A stretch of 64,000 bases of DNA from Halobaculum saliterrae (GTDB lineage Archaea > Halobacteriota > Halobacteria > Halobacteriales > Haloferacaceae): positions 1 through 64,000 of the forward strand of contig NZ_WUUS01000010.1 of the NCBI RefSeq assembly GCF_009831625.1, in the 5' to 3' direction. Position numbers and translations under genes: made by a program. Of this stretch, positions 37,362 to 47,805 are shown piece after piece. How positions within the stretch are numbered: position 1 is the stretch's first letter; the number at the start of each line of letters is the position of its first letter. The notes under the pieces are model-generated. The model was not told the origin of the DNA. It did not search any database and worked only from the letters and a program-made list of their open reading frames with translations.

Positions 37362-37724
37362 ATGTCAGTCTACGTCGACTACGAGACCCCTGCGGACCTC
37401 GCGGAACGAAGCCTCGACGCGCTCGAGGTCGCCCGCGACACCGGCATCGTGAAGAAAGGAACCAACGAGACGACCAAGGCGGTCGAGCGCGGCAACGCCA
37501 AGCTCGTGTACATCGCCGAGGACGTCGAGCCCGAGGAGATCGTCATGCACCTCCCCGAACTCTGCGAGGAGAAGGGCATCGCCTACGTCTTCATCGAGAC
37601 GCAGGACGATGTCGGCCACGCCGCCGGCCTCGAGGTCGGCTCCGCGGCCGCGGCCGTCACCGAGACGGGCGACGCAGAGGAGGACATCGACGATATCGCC
37701 GGCAAGGTCGAGGAACTGCGGTAA
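37362..37724 (+). CDS. rpl7ae: 50S ribosomal protein L7Ae
   Basis: The 120-aa protein is the archaeal L7Ae, which binds kink-turns in rRNA, box C/D and H/ACA guide RNAs and RNase P. The RNA-binding motif [26 protein letters not shown] (about 26-52) is complete. ATG 37362 gives the canonical N-terminus ([10 protein letters not shown]). It heads the cluster L7Ae-S28e-L24e-Ndk, spaced by 6 bases, 4 bases and an overlap, the usual archaeal order. A 90-nt leader precedes it. Confidence 0.97.
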
Positions 37725-37730
37725 GCCACC

Positions 37731-37955
37731 ATGTCCGCTGAAGAGCAAGAGAGCGGCTCCACGCCCGCCGAGGTCGTCGAGATCGTCGGCAAGACCGGGA
37801 TGCACGGCGAGGCCATGCAGGTCAAGTGCCGCATCCAGGAGGGCGAAAACCAGGGCCGCATCATTACGCGGAACGTCCTGGGCCCCGTCCAGATGGGGGA
37901 CATCCTCCAGCTGCGAGAGACCCAGCGCGACGCCGACTCCATCGGAGGTCAGTAA
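37731..37955 (+). CDS. rps28e: 30S ribosomal protein S28e
   Basis: The 74-aa protein has the S28e core [21 protein letters not shown] and [12 protein letters not shown]. Haloarchaeal members start with an acidic stretch of about 13 residues, present here. It lies 6 bases after rpl7ae and 4 bases before rpl24e. Confidence 0.97.
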
Positions 37956-37959
37956 GCCA

Positions 37960-38136
37960 ATGCCCCAGCAACGAGACTGTGACTACTGCGGCGCCGACAT
38001 CGAGCCCGGCACGGGCACGATGTTCGTCGCCGTCAACGGCAGCGTCACGCACTTCTGTTCGGCGAAGTGCGAGAAGAACGCGGATCTGGGTCGCGAGGCG
38101 CGCGACCTCGACTGGACCGCCGAGGGTCGCGAATGA
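37960..38136 (+). CDS. rpl24e: 50S ribosomal protein L24e
   Basis: The 58-aa protein is L24e with its zinc ribbon Cys7, Cys10, Cys33 and Cys37 (CDYCG ... HFCSAKC). Its length is normal for archaea. Its stop overlaps the ndk start (ATGA) at 38133-38136. Confidence 0.96.
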
Positions 38137-38603
38137 GCCACGACGAGCGAACGTTCGTGATGGTCAAGCCCGACGGCGTCCAGCGCGGCCTCATCGGGGA
38201 CATCGTCTCCCGGTTCGAGGACCGCGGCCTGAAGCTCGTCGGCGCGAAGTTCATGCAGATCGACGAGGAGCTCGCCCACGAGCACTACGGCGAGCACGAG
38301 GGCAAGCCGTTCTTCGAGGGCCTCGTCGAGTTCATCACCTCCGGCCCCGTCTTCGCGATGGTGTGGGAGGGCGCGGACGCCACGCGGCAGGTCCGCAAGA
38401 TGATGGGCGAGACCGACCCCGCCGACTCCGCCCCGGGGACGATCCGCGGCGACTTCGGCCTCGATCTGGGTCACAACGTCATCCACGGCTCCGACCACGA
38501 GGACGAGGGCGCCAACGAGCGCGAGATCGCCCTCTTCTTCGACGACGAGGAGCTCGTCGACTGGGACCTCGACGCCGCCGACTGGGTCTACGAGGACGAG
38601 TAA
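38133..38603 (+). CDS. ndk: Nucleoside diphosphate kinase
   Basis: The 156-aa protein transfers the terminal phosphate of ATP to NDPs through a phospho-histidine. The catalytic His118 in NVIHGSD is present, as are [12 protein letters not shown] and [11 protein letters not shown]; the extended C-terminal 15 residues are common in haloarchaea. Start by ATGA overlap with rpl24e. Confidence 0.97.
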
Positions 38604-38797: not shown

Positions 38798-39790
38798 ATG
38801 GTCACGTTCCTCGCCGGCGGCACCGGCACGCCGAAGCTCCTCGACGGCGCCGCCGACGTCTTCGCGCCCGCCGAGACGACGGTCGTCGGGAACACTGGCG
38901 ACGACGTGGAGATCGGCGGGCACCTCGTCTGCCCCGACGTCGACACGGTCCTGTTCCACGGCGGCGGCGTCCTCGACACGGAGCGGTGGTGGGGGATCGC
39001 CGGCGACACCACCGAGACCCACGAGGAGCTCGCGCGGCTCGCGGACGCCGCGGACCTCGGGAACGGCCCCCGTTACCTCCCCGAGGAGGCGCAGATCACC
39101 GGCCGCGAGATCGCCCGCTGGCGGCGTTTCTCCGGCGTCGCGGAGTTCATGGAGATCGGCGACCGCGATCGTGCGGTCCATGTCACCCGCACGTCGCTGC
39201 TCGACGAGGGCCGCACCCTCACCGAGGTGACGCGCACGCTCGCCGACGCGTTCGACCTCGACATCGACTTGATCCCGATGAGCGACGACCCCGTCGCCAC
39301 GATCGTCCACACCGCGGACGGGTCGATGCACTTCCAGGAGTACTGGGTCGCGAACCGCGGCGAGCCGGCCGTCGAGGACGTAGAGTTCCGCGGCAGCGAC
39401 GCGGCGTCCGCCACGGACGCGGTCCGCTCGGCGCTTCGCGATGACGTCGTGATCGGCCCCTCGAACCCGGTGACGAGCATCGGCCCGATGCTCGCGCTCG
39501 ACGGCGTCCGTGAGGCGCTCGCGGAGACGACCGTCGTCGCGGTCTCCCCGTTCGTCGAGGACCGGGTGTTCTCCGGCCCGGCGGCGGATCTCATGCGCGG
39601 CGTCGGCCGCGAGCCGAGCACCGCCGGCGTCGCCGACGCGTACCCGTTCGCGGACGCGTTCGTGCTCGACGACGACGACGGCACCGACCTCGACCGGCCG
39701 GTCGTCCGAACCGACACGCGGATCGACGGGCCGGACGACGCCGAGCGCGTCGCGCGAGCCTGTCGGGAGGCGCTGGAGGTGGCCGAGTGA
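38798..39790 (+). CDS. cofD: 2-phospho-L-lactate transferase (CofD)
   Basis: The 330-aa protein matches CofD, which joins the lactyl-phospho (or phosphoenolpyruvyl) group to Fo during coenzyme F420 synthesis. Seen are [16 protein letters not shown] at the N-terminus, [28 protein letters not shown] and [13 protein letters not shown]. The F420-dependent enzymes themselves are not nearby. The gene stop overlaps the next start (GTGA), so it heads the operon cofD, DUS-like, CitG-like and DUF447. A CATACAAG stretch about 28 bases upstream is a possible TATA box. Confidence 0.94.
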
Positions 39791-40692
39791 CCGAAGACAC
39801 GAGGGAGGCGCCGACGGTCGCGACGGAGGAGGCGGGCGGATCGGTCGAGGCGGGAGACGCAGCCGAGCCGGCCACGGCGACCGCGGCCGATCTCGGGATC
39901 GATCCGCCCGTCGCGCTCGCGAGCCTCTCGGGCGAGGCGGACGCCGAGTGGGCGCGGGCGGGCGCAGACTACGCCGGCGCGGCGTTCCTCGGGGGTATCG
40001 CGCTCGACGCCACGAGCCGGGAGGCCGTCCGCGCGATGGTCGCCGACCGGGACCGCTCGGAGTTCCTCCCCGAGGACCCGCTCGCGTGGATCGACGAGCA
40101 ACTCGACTCGCTCGCGGGCGACGACCTCGGGCTCCGAGCCGGCGTGAACGTCCGCGCGACGAACGCGGGGGCGATCCGTGACGCGGCCGCCGTCTGTGCC
40201 GACCGCGGTGCGGTGCTGGAGGTGAACGCCCACTGCCGGCAGGCCGAACTGCGCGCCGCCGGCTGCGGCGAGACGCTGCTCGCCGACACCGGCCGGCTGT
40301 CCGGGTACGTCGCCGCGGCGGCCGACGAGGGCGCGGCCGTGAGCGTGAAGGTCCGCGCGGAGGTCGACGGCGTCGACCTCGCGGGGACGGCCCGGGCGGT
40401 CGCCGACGCCGGCGCGGACGCGATCCACGTCGACGCGATGGACACCGAGGACGTCGTGGGAGTCGTGAAGGACGCCGCCCCCGAGCTGGTCGTGATCGCG
40501 AACAACGGCGTCCGCGACCGACGGACGGTCCGAGAGTACCTCGCTGCCGGCGCCGACGCGGTGAGCGTCGGCCGGCCGAGCGACGACCCGAGAGTCATGC
40601 GCCGGGTCCGGGCGGCTGTCGACGAGTGGCCCGACGGGGAGGGTCCGCCCGATGCGACACCCGGTACGGATCCGGCGGGGGTGTCGCGGTGA
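39787..40692 (+). CDS. Dihydrouridine-synthase-like TIM-barrel flavoprotein
   Basis: The 301-aa protein starts with GTG overlapping the cofD stop. After an acidic N-terminus of about 40 residues it has a TIM barrel with family pieces: [41 protein letters not shown] and [12 protein letters not shown], which resemble FMN-binding DUS or dihydroorotate-dehydrogenase-like proteins. The catalytic cysteine loop differs (NAHCRQ), so a tRNA-dihydrouridine function is uncertain. Its placement after cofD and before a CitG-like gene suggests a cofactor-related role; this is inference. Confidence 0.7.
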
Positions 40693-41582
40693 CCGACCCG
40701 GGGGTCGCCGCGGACGTCCCGCGACGCGGCCCGGCGGCGAACGCCGAACTCGCCCTGCTACTGGAGGTGGCTGGAACCCCAAAACCCGGAAACGTCGACC
40801 GCGCTCGCGACCTCGCGGCCCTCCGGTTCGAGCACTTCCTCGCGGGCGCGGTCGGCGCCCGACCGGGACTGGAGCGCGCGGCCGCAGGCGACCCCGTCGG
40901 CGAGGCGTTCGAGGCGGCCGTCGCCGGCATGAGCGAGCAGTCCGGCGGCAACACGCAGTTCGGCTGCCTCCTCCTGTTGACGCCGCTGGTGCGCGCGGCC
41001 ACAGACGACGACCGCACGCTCTCGCCCGACGGCGTCGCCGCGGTGTGTGAGGCGACGACCGTCGACGACGCGGCAGGCTTCTACCGCGCGTTCGAGCACG
41101 TCGACGTGGCGGTCGCGGACCCGCCCGAGGGGATGGACGCGCTCGAAGTGCGCCGCGGCGCCGAGGCGGTGCCGGCGTTGCGCGATCGCGGTGTGACCCT
41201 GTTCGAGGTGATGCGCGAGTCGGCCGCACCGGTCGACGACCACGGGACTCCGGGCGACGCGAACGCCCGCGAGTGGGTCGAGGGGTTCCCCCGGGCGTTC
41301 CGGGCGGCCGAGGCGATCCGCGCGGACGACGGGCCGATCGTCGACCGCGCGGCCCGCGCGTTCCTCGACCTGCTCGCGGAGGCCGAGGACACGCTGGTCC
41401 GGACGCAGCACGGCCCCGAGGTCGCCCGAGAGGTCCGCGAGCGGGCGGCGGGGATCGGCTCGCTCGACGAGGCGGAGGCTTGGGCCGACGAGCTTGTCGA
41501 GCGGGGGATCAACCCCGGGACGACCGCCGACGTCACGGCCGCGGCGCTGTTCGTTGCGCTCGAGCGCGGGGTGTCGGTGTGA
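40689..41582 (+). CDS. Triphosphoribosyl-dephospho-CoA synthase-like protein (CitG/MdcB family)
   Basis: The 297-aa protein has the CitG pattern: LALLLEVAGTPKPGNVDRARD (the P-K-P-G-x-V-D/S motif), HFLAGA, MSEQSGGNTQFGCLLLLTPL, and a C-terminal PGTTADVTAAALF block. In bacteria CitG makes the prosthetic group of citrate lyase and MdcB that of malonate decarboxylase, but the window has neither enzyme. Archaeal members must therefore make another ribosylated cofactor, unknown to me. GTG start overlaps the upstream stop. Confidence 0.78.
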   Translation: MTDPGVAADVPRRGPAANAELALLLEVAGTPKPGNVDRARDLAALRFEHFLAGAVGARPGLERAAAGDPVGEAFEAAVAGMSEQSGGNTQFGCLLLLTPLVRAATDDDRTLSPDGVAAVCEATTVDDAAGFYRAFEHVDVAVADPPEGMDALEVRRGAEAVPALRDRGVTLFEVMRESAAPVDDHGTPGDANAREWVEGFPRAFRAAEAIRADDGPIVDRAARAFLDLLAEAEDTLVRTQHGPEVAREVRERAAGIGSLDEAEAWADELVERGINPGTTADVTAAALFVALERGVSV

Positions 41583-42337
41583 GCGACGACCCGTCCGAGG
41601 GGGTGGGCGACGGCGACGAAGCGGACGGCGACAGCGACGATACCGGCCACGCCGACGCTGACGCCGATGCCGCCGCCGACTGGCCCGTCGACCTCACAGG
41701 CGTCACCGAGTCGGTGGTCGCGACCCTGGGCCCGAACGGGCTGTGGAACCTCGCCGCGCTCGGGCTCCACGCCCCCGAGCACGACGACCGACCCGCCGAC
41801 GCGCCGGTGCGCGCGCGGACGTGGGGACGGACCCGAACGTGGCGGAACTTCACGGAGCGCGGCGGGGGCGTCGTGCAGTTCGTGACGGACCCGCGGGACT
41901 TCGTCGACGCCGCGGCGACGGTCCGCGAGGAGGAGACCCCGGTACTCGACTCGGCGGACGCGTGGGTCGAGGTCGAGGTCGAGGAGGTCGACTCGGGCGA
42001 GCGTGGCGGCACGGAGTGGGTCGACTGGCACCTCCACGTGAGGAATGCGGCGGTCGAGCGGACCGGCGTTCGGACGATCAACCGCGGGTTCGGCGCCGTG
42101 ATCGACGCGACGGTCGCCGCCTCCCGGCTGGACGTGCCCTCGTACGACACCGAGGATCTGCTCGCGCGGCTCCGCTACTTCGCGGACGTGGTCGACCGGT
42201 GCGGCGGACCCGCCGAACGCGAGGCGTTCGAGACGCTACGCGAGGCGAGCGGGTGGGATCGCCGGGACCACGACGTGAACGGTGACCGCCGTGAGGACGA
42301 GGCAGCCCGCGACGATGACGACGTTGACCGCGAGTAG
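41579..42337 (+). CDS. DUF447 family protein
   Basis: The 252-aa protein starts at GTG overlapping the CitG-like stop. After an acidic first 35 residues it has the DUF447 core: ESVVATLGPNGLWNLAALGLH, RTWGRTRTWRNFTERGGGVVQFVTDP and a C-terminal helical segment YDTEDLLARLRYFADVVDRCGG. This core resembles flavin-reductase-like split-barrel folds. It is the last gene of the operon, with a highly acidic tail. Function is unknown; association with CitG-like genes in archaea is, as I remember, common. Confidence 0.78.
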   Translation: MSDDPSEGVGDGDEADGDSDDTGHADADADAAADWPVDLTGVTESVVATLGPNGLWNLAALGLHAPEHDDRPADAPVRARTWGRTRTWRNFTERGGGVVQFVTDPRDFVDAAATVREEETPVLDSADAWVEVEVEEVDSGERGGTEWVDWHLHVRNAAVERTGVRTINRGFGAVIDATVAASRLDVPSYDTEDLLARLRYFADVVDRCGGPAEREAFETLREASGWDRRDHDVNGDRREDEAARDDDDVDRE

Positions 42338-42401: not shown

Positions 42402-42596
42402 ATGGCGATCAAACCGAAGTACGTCAAGCAGCTCGCGACGCTGCTCCTGGAGCAGTATCCGCAGTCGTTCAACACCGACTTCGAGACCAACAAGGAGAAC
42501 GTCACGAAGCTGACCAACGTGGAGTCCAAGGGCGTCCGCAACCGCATCGCGGGCTACATCACGCGCAAGAAGGCCGGCAGCGCGGCGTCGGCCTGA
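42402..42596 (+). CDS. rps17e: 30S ribosomal protein S17e
   Basis: The 64-aa protein is S17e: AIKPKYVKQLATLLLEQYPQSFNTDFETNK, with KLTNVESKGVRNRIAGYITRK. CTTTTAG at 42370-42376 lies about 28 bases upstream of the ATG, so it has its own promoter separate from the DUF447 gene before it. Confidence 0.96.
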   Translation: MAIKPKYVKQLATLLLEQYPQSFNTDFETNKENVTKLTNVESKGVRNRIAGYITRKKAGSAASA

Positions 42597-42693: not shown

Positions 42694-43797
42694 ATGTCGA
42701 GTTCCTCGTTCGCGGACCGGCTGGGAACGTCCCCGGAGGCGGCGTACCTCGGGGGCGTCTCCGCGGCCGTGGTCGCGATCGCCGCGGCCGCGCTCGCGTT
42801 CCCGGAGGCGGTGTACGACGGCTTCGTCTGGCACTACTTCTGGGGACCGGTGCAGGCGGACGCGAACTCCGCGGTGTGTGCGATCCGTCCCGGCAGCACC
42901 GTCGAGTACCTCTACTCCAGCGCGGAGTGTTCGGCCGCGGCCGAGCCCGTCGCGTACCCCGGCTATACGCTGGTTTCTGAGGTCGGATACGTCGTCATCC
43001 TGTTGGTCGCGCTCGCGGGCGTCTCCCTGTTTCTTCGCCGGCTGGACATCGCGCGGACGACCGACTTCTTCCTCGCGCTGGTCCCGCTGTTCGTCTTCGG
43101 CGGGGCACTCCGCGTCGTCGAGGACGCCGACAACGCGATGTCCGACGCGCTGCTCCCGTATCCGTGGGACACGCTGATCATCAGCCCGTTCATCTACTTC
43201 ACCGTCTTCGGGATCACGCTGGCGCTCGTCGTCGCGGCCGTCTGGCTGGACCGCCGCGGGACCGTCGACGGGATCGAACGCCCGATCCTGTTCGGAGGGA
43301 TCGCGCTCGACGTCGTCACGGTCGGGTTCCTCGCCGCGTTGGCGATGACGCCGGGGAACCCCGTCACGTTCTACCCGCAGGTGATCGGCGTCATCCTCGT
43401 CGGCACCGCGGTCGCGACGGCGGCGACGTGGTACGCGACGAGGGCGTGGATCCCGTGGGTCCACTCCGGCACGGGCACGGCGGGGATCGTCGTCCTCGCG
43501 GCCCACGCGCTCGACGGCGTCGCGAACGTGATCGGCCTCGACTACATGGTCGCGCTGGGCGCCGGGCCGAACCTCGTCCCGAAACACCCCGTCAACCAGT
43601 TCATCGTCGACGCCACGGGCGCGGCGTGGCCGTTCCTCGTCGTGAAGCTCGTCGCCGCGGTATTCGTGCTCGCGATCTTCGAGGAGGAACTGTTCGAGGA
43701 GTCGCCGCGCTACGCCGTCCTGCTACTCATCGCGGTGACGGCGGTCGGAATGGGTCCCGGGACGCGGGACATGTTACGCGCGACGTTCGGGATCTGA
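42694..43797 (+). CDS. DUF63 membrane protein
   Basis: The 367-aa protein has about nine hydrophobic segments and the DUF63 landmarks [17 protein letters not shown] (N-terminal loop), [17 protein letters not shown], and [14 protein letters not shown], with an invariant-looking Arg-Val-x-Glu-Asp in a helix. Many archaea have one copy; function is unknown. Length agrees with the family. It converges on pccA. Confidence 0.85.
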
Positions 43798-43823: not shown

Positions 43824-45686
43824 CTACTCCAGCACGACGAGCACGTCGCCCATGTCGACGGAGTCGCCCTCGCCGACGAGCACCTGACTCACGACGCCAC
43901 CCTTGTCGGCGACCACGTCGTTCTCCATCTTCATCGCCTCCAGCACGCACACCACGTCGCCGGCGGCGACCTCGTCGCCCTCGCTCACGTCGACCGAGAG
44001 GATGGTACCCTGCATCTCCGCGGCGATCGCCTCGCCGTCGCCCTCGACGACGACCTCGTCGCCGCCGTCGTCCGACTCTGCCACGTCGGGACGCTCCATC
44101 CGGCCGGAGCCGCCACCACCGCCGCTCGGCGTCGGGATCGCGGGCGCGCCGCGCTCCTCCAGGCTCACCTCGAAGCGCTTGCCGTTCACCTCGACGGTGA
44201 ACTCGCGCTCGGTCGACTCCTCGCCGTCGTCCCCGGTGGTGTCGGCGTCGCCGGTTCCCCACGTCTCCTGGGCCTCCGCGAAGCGCGAGCGGTCGATCCC
44301 CTCGTCGAGGTACTTCGTCGTGTGTTTGCCGGCGACGAAGCGGTCGTCGGTGAGCATCAGCCGGTGGAACGGCACGATGGTGACGACGCCCTCGATGTCG
44401 TACTCGGCGAGCGCGCGCTTCGAGCGGGCGATACACTCCGCGCGGTCGCTCCCGTGGACGATCAGCTTCGCGATCATCGAGTCGTAGTCCGTCACGATGT
44501 CGTCGCCCTGTCGGAGCGCGTCGTCGAGGCGGACCCCGATTCCGCCCGGCGGGTCGTACGTCTCCAGGCTGCCCTGGTTGGCCGGCGCGAAGTCGTTCGC
44601 GGCGTTCTCCGCGTTGATGCGGAACTCCATCGCGTGCCCCTCGAGCTCCACCTCCTCTTGCGAGAACCCGATCTCCTCGCCCATCGCGACCCGAAGCTGC
44701 TCCTTCACGATGTCGATGCCCGTCAGCTCCTCGGTGACGGTGTGCTCGACCTGTATCCGGGTGTTGACCTCGAGGAAGTAGAAGTTCGCGTCCGGGCCGA
44801 GGAGTTCGCCGTCCCCGCGGTCGGTGTCCTCCTCGACGAGGAACTCGACGGTGCCGGCGTTCGTGTAGTCGGCCGCGCGGACGCCGCGTCGGGCGGCCTC
44901 GCCGATCTGCTCGCGCAGTTCGTCCGACAGCGCCGGCGACGGCCCCTCCTCGATGACCTTCTGGTAGCGCCGCTGGAGCGAGCAGTCGCGCTCGCCGAGG
45001 TGGCGAACGTTGCCGTGTTCGTCGGCGACGATCTGCACCTCGATGTGGCGCGGGTTCTCCAGATACCGCTCCAGGTACACCGAGTCGTTCGAGAAGTACG
45101 CCTCGCCCTCGCGTTTGGCGGACTCGAGGAGGTCCTCGGCCTCGTCGGCGGACTGGACGACCTTCATCCCGCGACCGCCGCCGCCGCCCTCGGCCTTGAT
45201 CGCGACCGGGTAGCCGTACTCGTCGCCGAAGTCGGTGACCTCCGCCACCTCCGTGACGGGGTCGGTCGTCCCCGGCACGATGGGCACGTCCGCCTCGTCC
45301 ATGATCTTCCGGGCCTTCGTCTTCTCGCCGAGCGACTCCATCGCCTCGGCGTCCGGGCCGACCCACGTGATGCCCTCCGCGTCGGCGACCTTCGCCGCGA
45401 AGTCGGCGTTCTCAGCGAGGAAGCCGTATCCGGGGTGGATCGCGTCGGCGTCGGCCTTCCGGGCGGCCTCCACGATCGCGTCCTGGTCGAGGTAGGAGTC
45501 GGCCGCGCGGGCCGGGCCGACGTTGTACGCCTCGTCGGCGTAGCGGACGTGACCGCCGTGCTTGTCGGCCTCGGAGTACACCGCGACCGTGTCGATGCCG
45601 AGCTCCTCGCACGCGCGCATCACGCGCACCGCGATCTCCCCGCGGTTGGCGACGAGCACCTTGTCGAACGGAGTGGTTTCGGTCAT
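43824..45686 (-). CDS. pccA: Acyl-CoA carboxylase alpha subunit (biotin carboxylase + BCCP)
   Basis: The 620-aa protein combines an N-terminal biotin carboxylase (about 1-455: [21 protein letters not shown]-grasp loop [24 protein letters not shown]) and a C-terminal biotinyl domain with the target lysine in EAMKMEND (Lys586). It belongs to the haloarchaeal propionyl/acetyl-CoA carboxylase, with pccX and pccB encoded upstream on the same strand. A Gly/Ser-rich linker and acidic segment sit between the domains. A TACT-N7-GAGTA palindrome lies 90-105 bases before its start. Confidence 0.93.
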
Positions 45687-45775
45687 TCTTGCGAGGTCCT
45701 TCCGCAGGCCGTCTACTCAAACCGTCGGTTCGGAATGGGCCACGAGGGCGAGAAAGCCGACGCTGGCGGAACTAC

Positions 45776-45791
45776 TACTCGACCACGAGTA
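45776..45791 (-). promoter_or_regulatory. TACT-N7-GAGTA palindrome upstream of pccA
   Basis: TACTCG-ACCA-CGAGTA is a perfect 6-base inverted repeat that fits the remembered Halobacterium TrmB consensus TACT-N7-GAGTA. It sits in the 150-base gap between pccX and pccA, 90-105 bases before the pccA start. A TrmB regulator is encoded at 11603. One such match per window can occur by chance. Confidence 0.4.
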
Positions 45792-45836
45792 CGATTCCGG
45801 CGTCGACGGACGCCGAGCGGCGCTCCAGGTTGCCGC

Positions 45837-46118
45837 TTAGAACCGGTCCGTCCGCCCGCTGGCAGTCCACGCGTCGGTGGGCGCGCCCCGGGGGACGCGT
45901 GCGCCTCGACCGCCCAGCGCCTCGAGTCGACCGGCGAACGCCCAGCGCTTGCCGTCCCACGTCTCCTCGCCGTCCTCGGCGGCCGCGGCCGCGGCGGCTG
46001 CCTCGCTGTCGCGGACGTGCGCGCCGATGGCCGCGAGGATCGCCGCGGCCTCATCGTCGTCGGCGTCGTCGGGCAGCGTCAGGCGTTCGGCGACCGCGGG
46101 TTCGTCGTCGTCAGCCAT
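45837..46118 (-). CDS. pccX: Acyl-CoA carboxylase small subunit PccX (acc operon protein)
   Basis: The 93-aa protein is the small third subunit of haloarchaeal propionyl-CoA carboxylase: an acidic N-terminus, [19 protein letters not shown] and the C-terminal segment [18 protein letters not shown], similar to the PccX of Haloferax mediterranei. It may stabilise the complex. It starts one base after the pccB stop (46120) and is followed by a 150-base gap before pccA, so it is co-expressed with pccB. Confidence 0.82.
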
Positions 46119-46119
46119 C

Positions 46120-47664
46120 TCAGATCGGGATGTTGCCGTGTTTCTTGTCCGGGAGCGAGTCGCGCTTCGACAGCAGCATCTCCAGGTCGTCGATGAGTCG
46201 CGGGCGGGTCTCCGTCGGCTCGATCACGTCGTCGAGGAACCCCTTGTCGGCGGCCGTGTAGGGGTTGGCGAACTCCTCGCGGTACTCGTCGATCAGCTCC
46301 TGACGCTTCGCCTCGGGGTCGTCGGCGTCCTCCAGTTCGTCGTCGTAGAGGATGCTCACCGCGCCCTTGGGACCCATCACCGCGATCTCCGCGGTCGGCC
46401 ACGCGTAGTTCACGTCGCCGCCGATGTGCTTCGAGGCCATCACGTCGTACGCGCCGCCGTACGCCTTGCGCGTGATCACGGTCAGCAGCGGGACGGTCGC
46501 CTCCGAGTACGCGTACAGCAGCTTCGCGCCGTGGCGAATGATCCCGTTGTGCTCCTGGTCGGTGCCGGGCATGAAGCCGGGCACGTCGACGAACGTCAGG
46601 ATCGGGACGTTGAACGCGTCACAGAAGCGGACGAAGCGGGCGCCCTTCTCGGAGGACTCGATATCGAGCGTTCCGGCGTTGACTCTGGGCTGGTTCGCGA
46701 CGACGCCGATCGAGTGGCCGTCGAGGCGGGCGAACCCGGTGACGATGTTCTTCGCGAAGTCCGCGTGTGTCTCGAAGAAGGACCCCTCGTCGACGACGCG
46801 GTCGACGACGTTCGTGATGTCGTAGGGCTTGCGTGGCTCGTCGGGAACGATCTCCGTCAGCTCCTCGTCTCGGCGGTCGGGGTCGTCCCACGGGTCGACG
46901 CGAGGCGGGTCCTCGACGTTGTTCTGCGGGAGATACGACAGCAGGCGACGCATGTCGTCGAGCGCCTCCTCCTCGGAGTCCTCCGCGAAGTGCGCGACGC
47001 CGGAGGTGCTCGCGTGGGTCTGGGCCCCGCCGAGTTCCTCGAAGGTGACCTCCTCGCCCGTGACGGTCTTGATCACGTCCGGGCCGGTGATGAACATGTG
47101 ACTCGACTCCTTCACCATGAACGTGAAGTCCGTGATGGCGGGGGAGTACACCGCGCCGCCGGCACACGGCCCCATGATCCCCGAGAGCTGCGGGATGACG
47201 CCCGACGCCTCGGTGTTGCGCCGGAAGATCTCCGCGTAGCCCGCGAGCGAGCCGACGCCCTCCTGAATGCGCGCGCCGGCGGAGTCGTTGAGCCCGACGA
47301 CCGGCGCGCCCACGTCCATCGCCTTGTCCATCACCTTGCACACCTTCTCGGCGAACACCTCGCCCAGCGAGCCGCCGAAGACGGTGAAGTCGTGGGCGAA
47401 CACGAACGTCTTCCGCCCGTTGACCTCGCCGTACCCGGTGACGACGCCGTCGCCGCGGATCCGCTTCTCCTCCATCCCGAACTTGTGGGTGTCGTGGGTG
47501 CGGAACTGGTCGAACTCGTGGAACGTACCGTCGTCGAGGAAGTAGTCGATCCGCTCGCGCGCGGTCATCTTCCCCTTCTCGTGTTGGGCCTCGATCCGGG
47601 CCTCTCCGCCGCCCTTCTCGGCGTCCGCACGCTTCTCGCGGAGCTCCTCGATGCGGTCCTCCAT
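46120..47664 (-). CDS. pccB: Acyl-CoA carboxylase beta subunit (carboxyltransferase)
   Basis: The 514-aa protein is the carboxyltransferase subunit of propionyl/acetyl-CoA carboxylase. N-terminal and C-terminal crotonase-like domains are seen with [43 protein letters not shown], and [19 protein letters not shown]. Haloarchaea use the enzyme in propionate use and in making (2R)-methylmalonyl-CoA for the 3HV units of PHBV. ATG 47664 was chosen; GTG 47670 would add two residues. The gene heads pccB-pccX-pccA on the minus strand. Confidence 0.93.
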
Positions 47665-47805
47665 CGTCACGGCAGGTCACCTCGGGTCGGAGCAGTCATT
47701 GGTTGGATGCACTGTGCGGCGAGGCGGCCCTTAGGGGTTCCGTAACAGGCTACGTCCCCTCAGGCGTCCGGGACCGATGTCTCGGCGGCATCGACCGCCG
47801 CTCGA

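Follow-up and report, generated by a model that had tools for sequence, protein, structure and literature searches.

The first 64,000 nucleotides of contig NZ_WUUS01000010.1 of the haloarchaeon Halobaculum saliterrae (assembly GCF_009831625.1), referred to below as the window, contain an operon of four genes. The first is cofD, a gene of coenzyme F420 biosynthesis, and it is followed by genes for a protein resembling tRNA-dihydrouridine synthases (DUS-like), a CitG-like protein and a protein of the DUF447 family (Table 1). At each of the three junctions the TGA stop codon of the upstream gene overlaps the GTG start codon of the downstream gene in a 4-base GTGA. A preliminary description of the window had reported four genes joined by 4-base overlaps, and the coordinates, strands and junctions were all confirmed. 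The question addressed here is which pathway these genes serve, and the comparison of genomes points to the one-carbon (C1) metabolism that depends on F420.

Table 1. Genes of the cofD operon in the window and the evidence for their assignment.
Gene product	Position	Strand	Evidence
CofD, 2-phospho-L-lactate transferase of F420 biosynthesis	38798..39790	+	TIGR01819 equivalog, 387.7 bits (cut-off 257.45)
DUS-like flavin mononucleotide (FMN)-type TIM-barrel protein, relative of the MJ0144 family	39787..40692	+	TIGR00736, 111 bits (below cut-off); predicted fold; [ND]AHCRQ loop
CitG-like protein, proposed alpha-(phospho)ribosyl transferase	40689..41582	+	PF01874, 204 bits (cut-off 27); bacterial tetrahydromethanopterin (H4MPT) clusters; co-loss with ribofuranosylaminobenzene 5'-phosphate (RFAP) synthase
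DUF447 FMN-binding split-barrel flavoprotein, proposed side-chain reductase	41579..42337	+	DUF447_N (PF04289), 70 bits, and DUF447_C (PF20766), 69 bits; predicted fold

The preliminary description proposed that the order of the genes be compared across archaea. In a survey of 80 named haloarchaeal loci, which were fetched by means of the DUS-like protein, the full order cofD-DUS-CitG-DUF447 recurred in 52, and the arrangement is therefore not due to chance. In all 78 loci whose upstream sequence was long enough or gave a match, the DUS-like gene adjoins cofD (L128 and L167 show none). The CitG-DUF447 pair lies downstream of cofD-DUS in 54 of the 80 loci and is absent there in the other 26, among them loci of Natrinema, Natronococcus, Natrialba, Halarchaeum and some Halobellus; in three of these 26 it lies as a pair at a distance of a few kilobases, on the opposite strand. 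In-frame overlaps of the ATGA or GTGA type join CitG to DUF447 in 48 of 54 loci, DUS to CitG in 39 of 54, and cofD to DUS in 27 of 78. Among the genomes of the phylum that hold both genes, CitG adjoins DUF447 in 126 of 139, and 12 of the 13 exceptions belong to one family. The operon is thus made of two cohesive pairs, cofD-DUS and CitG-DUF447, the second of which is kept across archaeal families. Outside the haloarchaea the usual order, found in many families, is DUS-CitG-DUF447, and cofD lies nearby in four further families.

Some families show other genes at these positions. In families f12 and f20 (L083, 6921-9466; L091, 7929-9694), cofD and CitG are separated by genes for a DUF763 protein and for a phosphoesterase of the calcineurin-like type; the latter might serve the same pathway as a phosphatase. 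In family f13 (L084, 8653-9720) a gene for an FAD-binding oxidoreductase lies directly upstream of CitG, in the position held by the DUS-like gene in other families.

The losses of these genes were followed through 243 haloarchaeal genomes of the order, with a separate control panel of 14 genomes. CitG is present in 240 of the 243 and RFAP synthase, which is encoded outside the operon, in 238. CitG is lacking in G008 and G049, which are of one genus, and in Halobacterium salinarum DSM 3754 (G104), whose sister species keep it. All three also lack RFAP synthase (hypergeometric 4e-6, with only two independent losses behind this value) and DUF447. Mch, cofD and the DUS-like gene have been retained in all three, and their cofD loci show the DUS-like gene still joined to cofD, with only CitG and DUF447 gone from the operon. 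Conversely, six haloarchaeal genomes with no good DUS-like match retain CitG and RFAP synthase, in G210 and G353 the genes cofD, CitG and DUF447 form a group that lacks DUS, and losses of the DUS-like gene and of CitG never occur in the same genome. In the control panel, CitG (that of E. coli aside), RFAP synthase and DUF447 are confined to exactly the same four archaea. From these patterns it follows that CitG-DUF447 go with RFAP synthase and not with cofD, and that the DUS-like gene is in neither loss group. The idea that all four genes form one pathway was rejected, as the DUS-like gene and CitG-DUF447 are lost independently.

The RFAP synthase encoded in the genome to which the window belongs (G000:C1:140179-141129) scores 150.8 bits against TIGR00144, above the cut-off of 113.5. 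It stays below the stricter equivalog NF040726 (161 of 328 bits), but the same holds for the enzyme from a genuine bacterial H4MPT cluster, which scores 162 bits against TIGR00144 and 186 bits against NF040726. The haloarchaeal protein is no further from the models than its bacterial counterpart. The phosphate-binding loops are kept, with the GLGSGTQ loop, the RGG(R/T)SG motif and R26 all retained, and identity to the bacterial proteins reaches 35-37%. A second RFAP synthase with a much higher model score (288 bits) was seen in a haloarchaeon without the DUS-like gene (G312:C1:131130-131960, L252), where it was possibly acquired by transfer.

The same families meet again in bacteria. The H4MPT clusters of Phyllobacterium and Azoarcus encode RFAP synthase, MtdB, Mch, Fae, a CitG-like protein and DUF447, and those of Azospirillum, Thiodictyon and Paraburkholderia encode a CitG-like protein with RFAP synthase, Mch and Fae; the CitG-like gene adjoins fae. 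By our own assignment from the gene order given in PMC3615186 and PMC8141765, orf7 corresponds to the CitG-like protein, orf19 to DUF447 and mptG/orf4 to RFAP synthase. The CitG-like and DUF447 proteins are accordingly placed among the relatives of the H4MPT gene set. The CitG-like, DUF447 and RFAP synthase families are common to haloarchaea and the (dephospho)H4MPT clusters of methylotrophic bacteria, which also contain Mch; unlike these clusters, haloarchaea use the F420-dependent reductase Mer, lack the TIGR00284 family and couple CitG-DUF447 to cofD. Methanogens and Archaeoglobi, which make methanopterin, possess the RFAP synthase, CitG-like, DUF447 and DUS-like genes, with DUS-CitG-DUF447 adjacent in many families. 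They differ from haloarchaea in that cofD is mostly unlinked and in that the DUS-like protein carries a methanogenesis marker 9 domain (TIGR03277), which is found at the C-terminus of non-haloarchaeal relatives (L085, 7759-8889; L078, 8237-9376) and is lacking in haloarchaea.

The CitG-like protein shares the PF01874 family with the triphosphoribosyl-dephospho-CoA synthases CitG and MdcB, but it falls far below both equivalogs (18.3 versus 272 bits for TIGR03125, CitG; 24.8 versus 282 bits for TIGR03132, MdcB). Genes for citrate lyase or malonate decarboxylase were not seen among the Pfam-scanned neighbours, no genome-wide search having been made. CitG forms an alpha-ribosidic bond from ATP, and the ribityl chain of methanopterin bears a ribose 5-phosphate in alpha linkage. 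The DUF447 protein has both domains of its family and homologues of known FMN-bound structure. Its AlphaFold2 (AF2) model matches the FMN-bound DUF447 structures 2iml, 2nr4 and 2ptf, followed by split-barrel flavin reductases, and the protein in the window is therefore proposed as a predicted FMN flavoprotein. A literature search returned nothing on a function for DUF447, on CitG together with cofD, or on CitG together with H4MPT. A ribosylated cofactor is very likely the target of the CitG-like and DUF447 proteins. This cofactor is probably not entirely unknown, and it is probably not an F420 derivative, since both proteins occur in the H4MPT gene set and track RFAP synthase and not cofD.

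The link of the operon to F420 is real and probably runs via Mer, the F420-dependent methylene-pterin reductase, which uses F420H2 and is encoded by HVO_1937 in Haloferax volcanii. A search for Mer covered 22 genomes, 21 of them haloarchaeal. G008 and G049 gave no match, and H. salinarum has only a 133-bit paralog, which is about 31% identical to the Mer of its sister species (Mer is 78-80% identical between Halobacterium species). An ortholog is present in all 18 other haloarchaea tested, at 291-333 bits. Mer exceeds the cut-off of the NF002619 equivalog (453 bits, cut-off 276) and stays under that of TIGR03555 (291 bits, cut-off 349); the NF002619 match and the co-loss with the pathway mark it as an H4MPT-specific enzyme that would use the carrier. 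Mer adjoins cofE in haloarchaea, and this was the sole consistently informative neighbour around RFAP synthase and Mer. A single cluster on the Halobellus limi plasmid NZ_CP031312.1 (L251, 3053-8689) comprises npdG, mer, DUF447, RFAP synthase and two genes of the methionine synthase type, and is possibly a transferable F420-dependent methionine module. It is a single case, as no MetE was found near the other fetched RFAP synthase or Mer loci. H. salinarum requires methionine, together with four other amino acids (PMC2674319); on methionine prototrophy in Haloferax, nothing was found in the literature.

The co-loss of Mer, the cluster of Halobellus limi and the methionine requirement of H. salinarum therefore lead us to infer that the product of RFAP synthase, CitG and DUF447 is the C1 carrier of Mer. 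We consider it probable that the operon serves F420-dependent C1 metabolism, in which the CitG-like and DUF447 proteins build the side chain of a methanopterin-type carrier, Mer reduces this carrier, and the methyl group goes to methionine; the product is putative. Gene orders, co-loss, family membership and folds are direct observations here, and every reaction and product is deduced from them. CofD makes F420-0. In the proposed scheme, RFAP synthase would join p-aminobenzoate and phosphoribosyl pyrophosphate in the first step of the side chain, DUF447 with its FMN would reduce the aminobenzyl C-O bond and so open the ribofuranose ring to a ribityl chain, and the CitG-like protein would, by analogy with CitG, add a second, alpha-linked (phospho)ribosyl group. 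The resulting tetrahydropterin would carry the methylene group that Mer and F420H2 reduce to methyl, and the methyl group would pass to methionine synthase. The location of cofD in the operon would be explained because F420 and the carrier are both substrates of Mer. A bolder proposal, which we regard as plausible without calling it probable, is that most haloarchaea have two C1 carriers, tetrahydrofolate and a previously undescribed methanopterin-type pterin, on which Mer would form the methyl group of methionine, and that methanopterin biosynthesis, in archaea and bacteria alike, has its missing alpha-ribosyl transferase in the CitG-like protein and a missing side-chain reductase in DUF447.

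Several points weigh against the methanopterin-type carrier. Older chemical surveys reportedly found folates, not methanopterin, in halobacteria. The TIGR00284 family is related to dihydropteroate synthase (DHPS). Methanogens have it, and so do bacterial clusters, under the name DUF6513, but no haloarchaeal protein matches it well (18-26 bits versus 357 bits in the non-haloarchaeal control G009). It was rejected as a further member of the haloarchaeal pathway on these scores, and the folate DHPS of haloarchaea could substitute for it. D19 of RFAP synthase is changed to N in haloarchaea, and to S in one sequence; the D19N enzyme of M. thermautotrophicus retains only some activity (PMC6787355). 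The co-loss of CitG and RFAP synthase amounts to two independent events, the draft genomes G336 and G191 have CitG and Mer with no RFAP synthase match, and Mch, being retained in all three losers, is independent of the proposed carrier. Lastly, according to the published annotation, haloarchaea use tetrahydrofolate and have no methanopterin-specific enzymes, and the RFAP synthase homologue HVO_2628 of Haloferax volcanii probably does not catalyse the RFAP synthase reaction (PMC8305020). Given the genes of the H4MPT set and the conservation of RFAP synthase, the statement on absent methanopterin-specific enzymes needs to be re-examined.

Some of these points bear on the alternative that RFAP synthase, the CitG-like protein and DUF447 make another arylamine or ribosylated product, such as a modified folate side chain, and that Mer uses tetrahydrofolate, as was assumed in PMC8305020. 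Two lineages have lost Mer along with RFAP synthase, CitG and DUF447, and in Halobellus limi mer stands in one cluster with the genes for DUF447, RFAP synthase and methionine synthase; neither is expected of an enzyme that uses folate. This alternative is therefore unlikely, even though the missing TIGR00284, the change of D19 and the retention of Mch without the pathway would all agree with it.

According to the preliminary description, an unknown ribosylated cofactor related to F420 metabolism may be produced or used by the CitG-like, the DUS-like and the DUF447 protein. The ribosylated cofactor of the CitG-like and DUF447 proteins stands, as does a link to F420, via Mer; a derivative of F420 as the cofactor and the inclusion of the DUS-like protein find no support. 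Such a derivative is very improbable, since genomes that have lost CitG and DUF447 keep cofD, CitG-DUF447 are elsewhere in 26 of the 80 loci, and losses of DUS do not overlap those of CitG. Moreover, in the bacterial H4MPT clusters the CitG-like protein and DUF447 are accompanied by an NAD(P)-dependent dehydrogenase, with no annotated F420 gene in the stretch. What speaks for it is the position of cofD, both in the four-gene operon of the 52 haloarchaeal loci and beside CitG-DUF447 in the four other families. A coincidental co-loss through general genome reduction in haloarchaea that depend on amino acids, with the gene order as a relic, is very improbable: the losers do have small genomes (2.1-2.4 Mb) and H. 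salinarum does need four other amino acids, but the equally small G203 (2.2 Mb), G221 (2.3 Mb) and G116 (1.9 Mb) retain all these genes, the losers keep cofD, the DUS-like gene and Mch, and CitG and DUF447 are gone precisely from an otherwise intact operon.

The DUS-like protein calls for a separate explanation. It shares the FMN-type TIM barrel and the catalytic Cys with tRNA-dihydrouridine synthases (Dus), and its AF2 model (pLDDT 89.8) is nearest in fold to tRNA Dus, dihydropyrimidine dehydrogenase and dihydroorotate dehydrogenase. It differs from Dus in having HCR in place of GCP, within an invariant [ND]-A-H-C-R-Q loop of the family, and in lacking the C-terminal helical tRNA-binding domain, since the confident model ends at a barrel helix (268-279). 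The preliminary description was right about the altered catalytic loop, although the Cys is kept. Its suggestion that the protein may not modify tRNA is likely to hold as well, given the loop, the missing domain and the finding that tRNA of H. volcanii contains no dihydrouridine (PMC2584109). With 111 of the 218.7 bits set for TIGR00736, the protein is related to the MJ0144 family but scores below the cut-off of its model. Its adjacency to CitG in other archaea made it a candidate for the methanopterin module, which was rejected for haloarchaea because its losses are independent of those of CitG-DUF447. We propose that the DUS-like protein has a role of its own, as a flavoprotein acting on a small molecule; its gene is constantly partnered with cofD in haloarchaea. 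The protein might, though we are doubtful of this, reduce a C=C bond of an F420 precursor such as dehydro-F420-0.

In the window the operon is flanked by a block of ribosomal L7Ae and NDK genes (37362-38600) and by the gene for ribosomal protein S17e (42402-42596). S17e also lies downstream of DUF447 in Natrinema (L122), and its placement is conserved at least there. Further downstream, a DUF63 membrane protein (42694-43797) adjoins a biotin carboxylase and a carboxyltransferase on the minus strand (43827-47670), which form an acyl-CoA carboxylase pair.

If the operon does serve a methanopterin-type carrier, it would provide candidate genes for steps of methanopterin side-chain biosynthesis that, to our knowledge, remain unassigned. 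The accepted view that methanopterin was replaced by folate would then be wrong for most haloarchaea. It would also give a role to F420 in these organisms, in which that role has been called enigmatic (PMC8305020), and it would account for the methionine requirement of Halobacterium salinarum.

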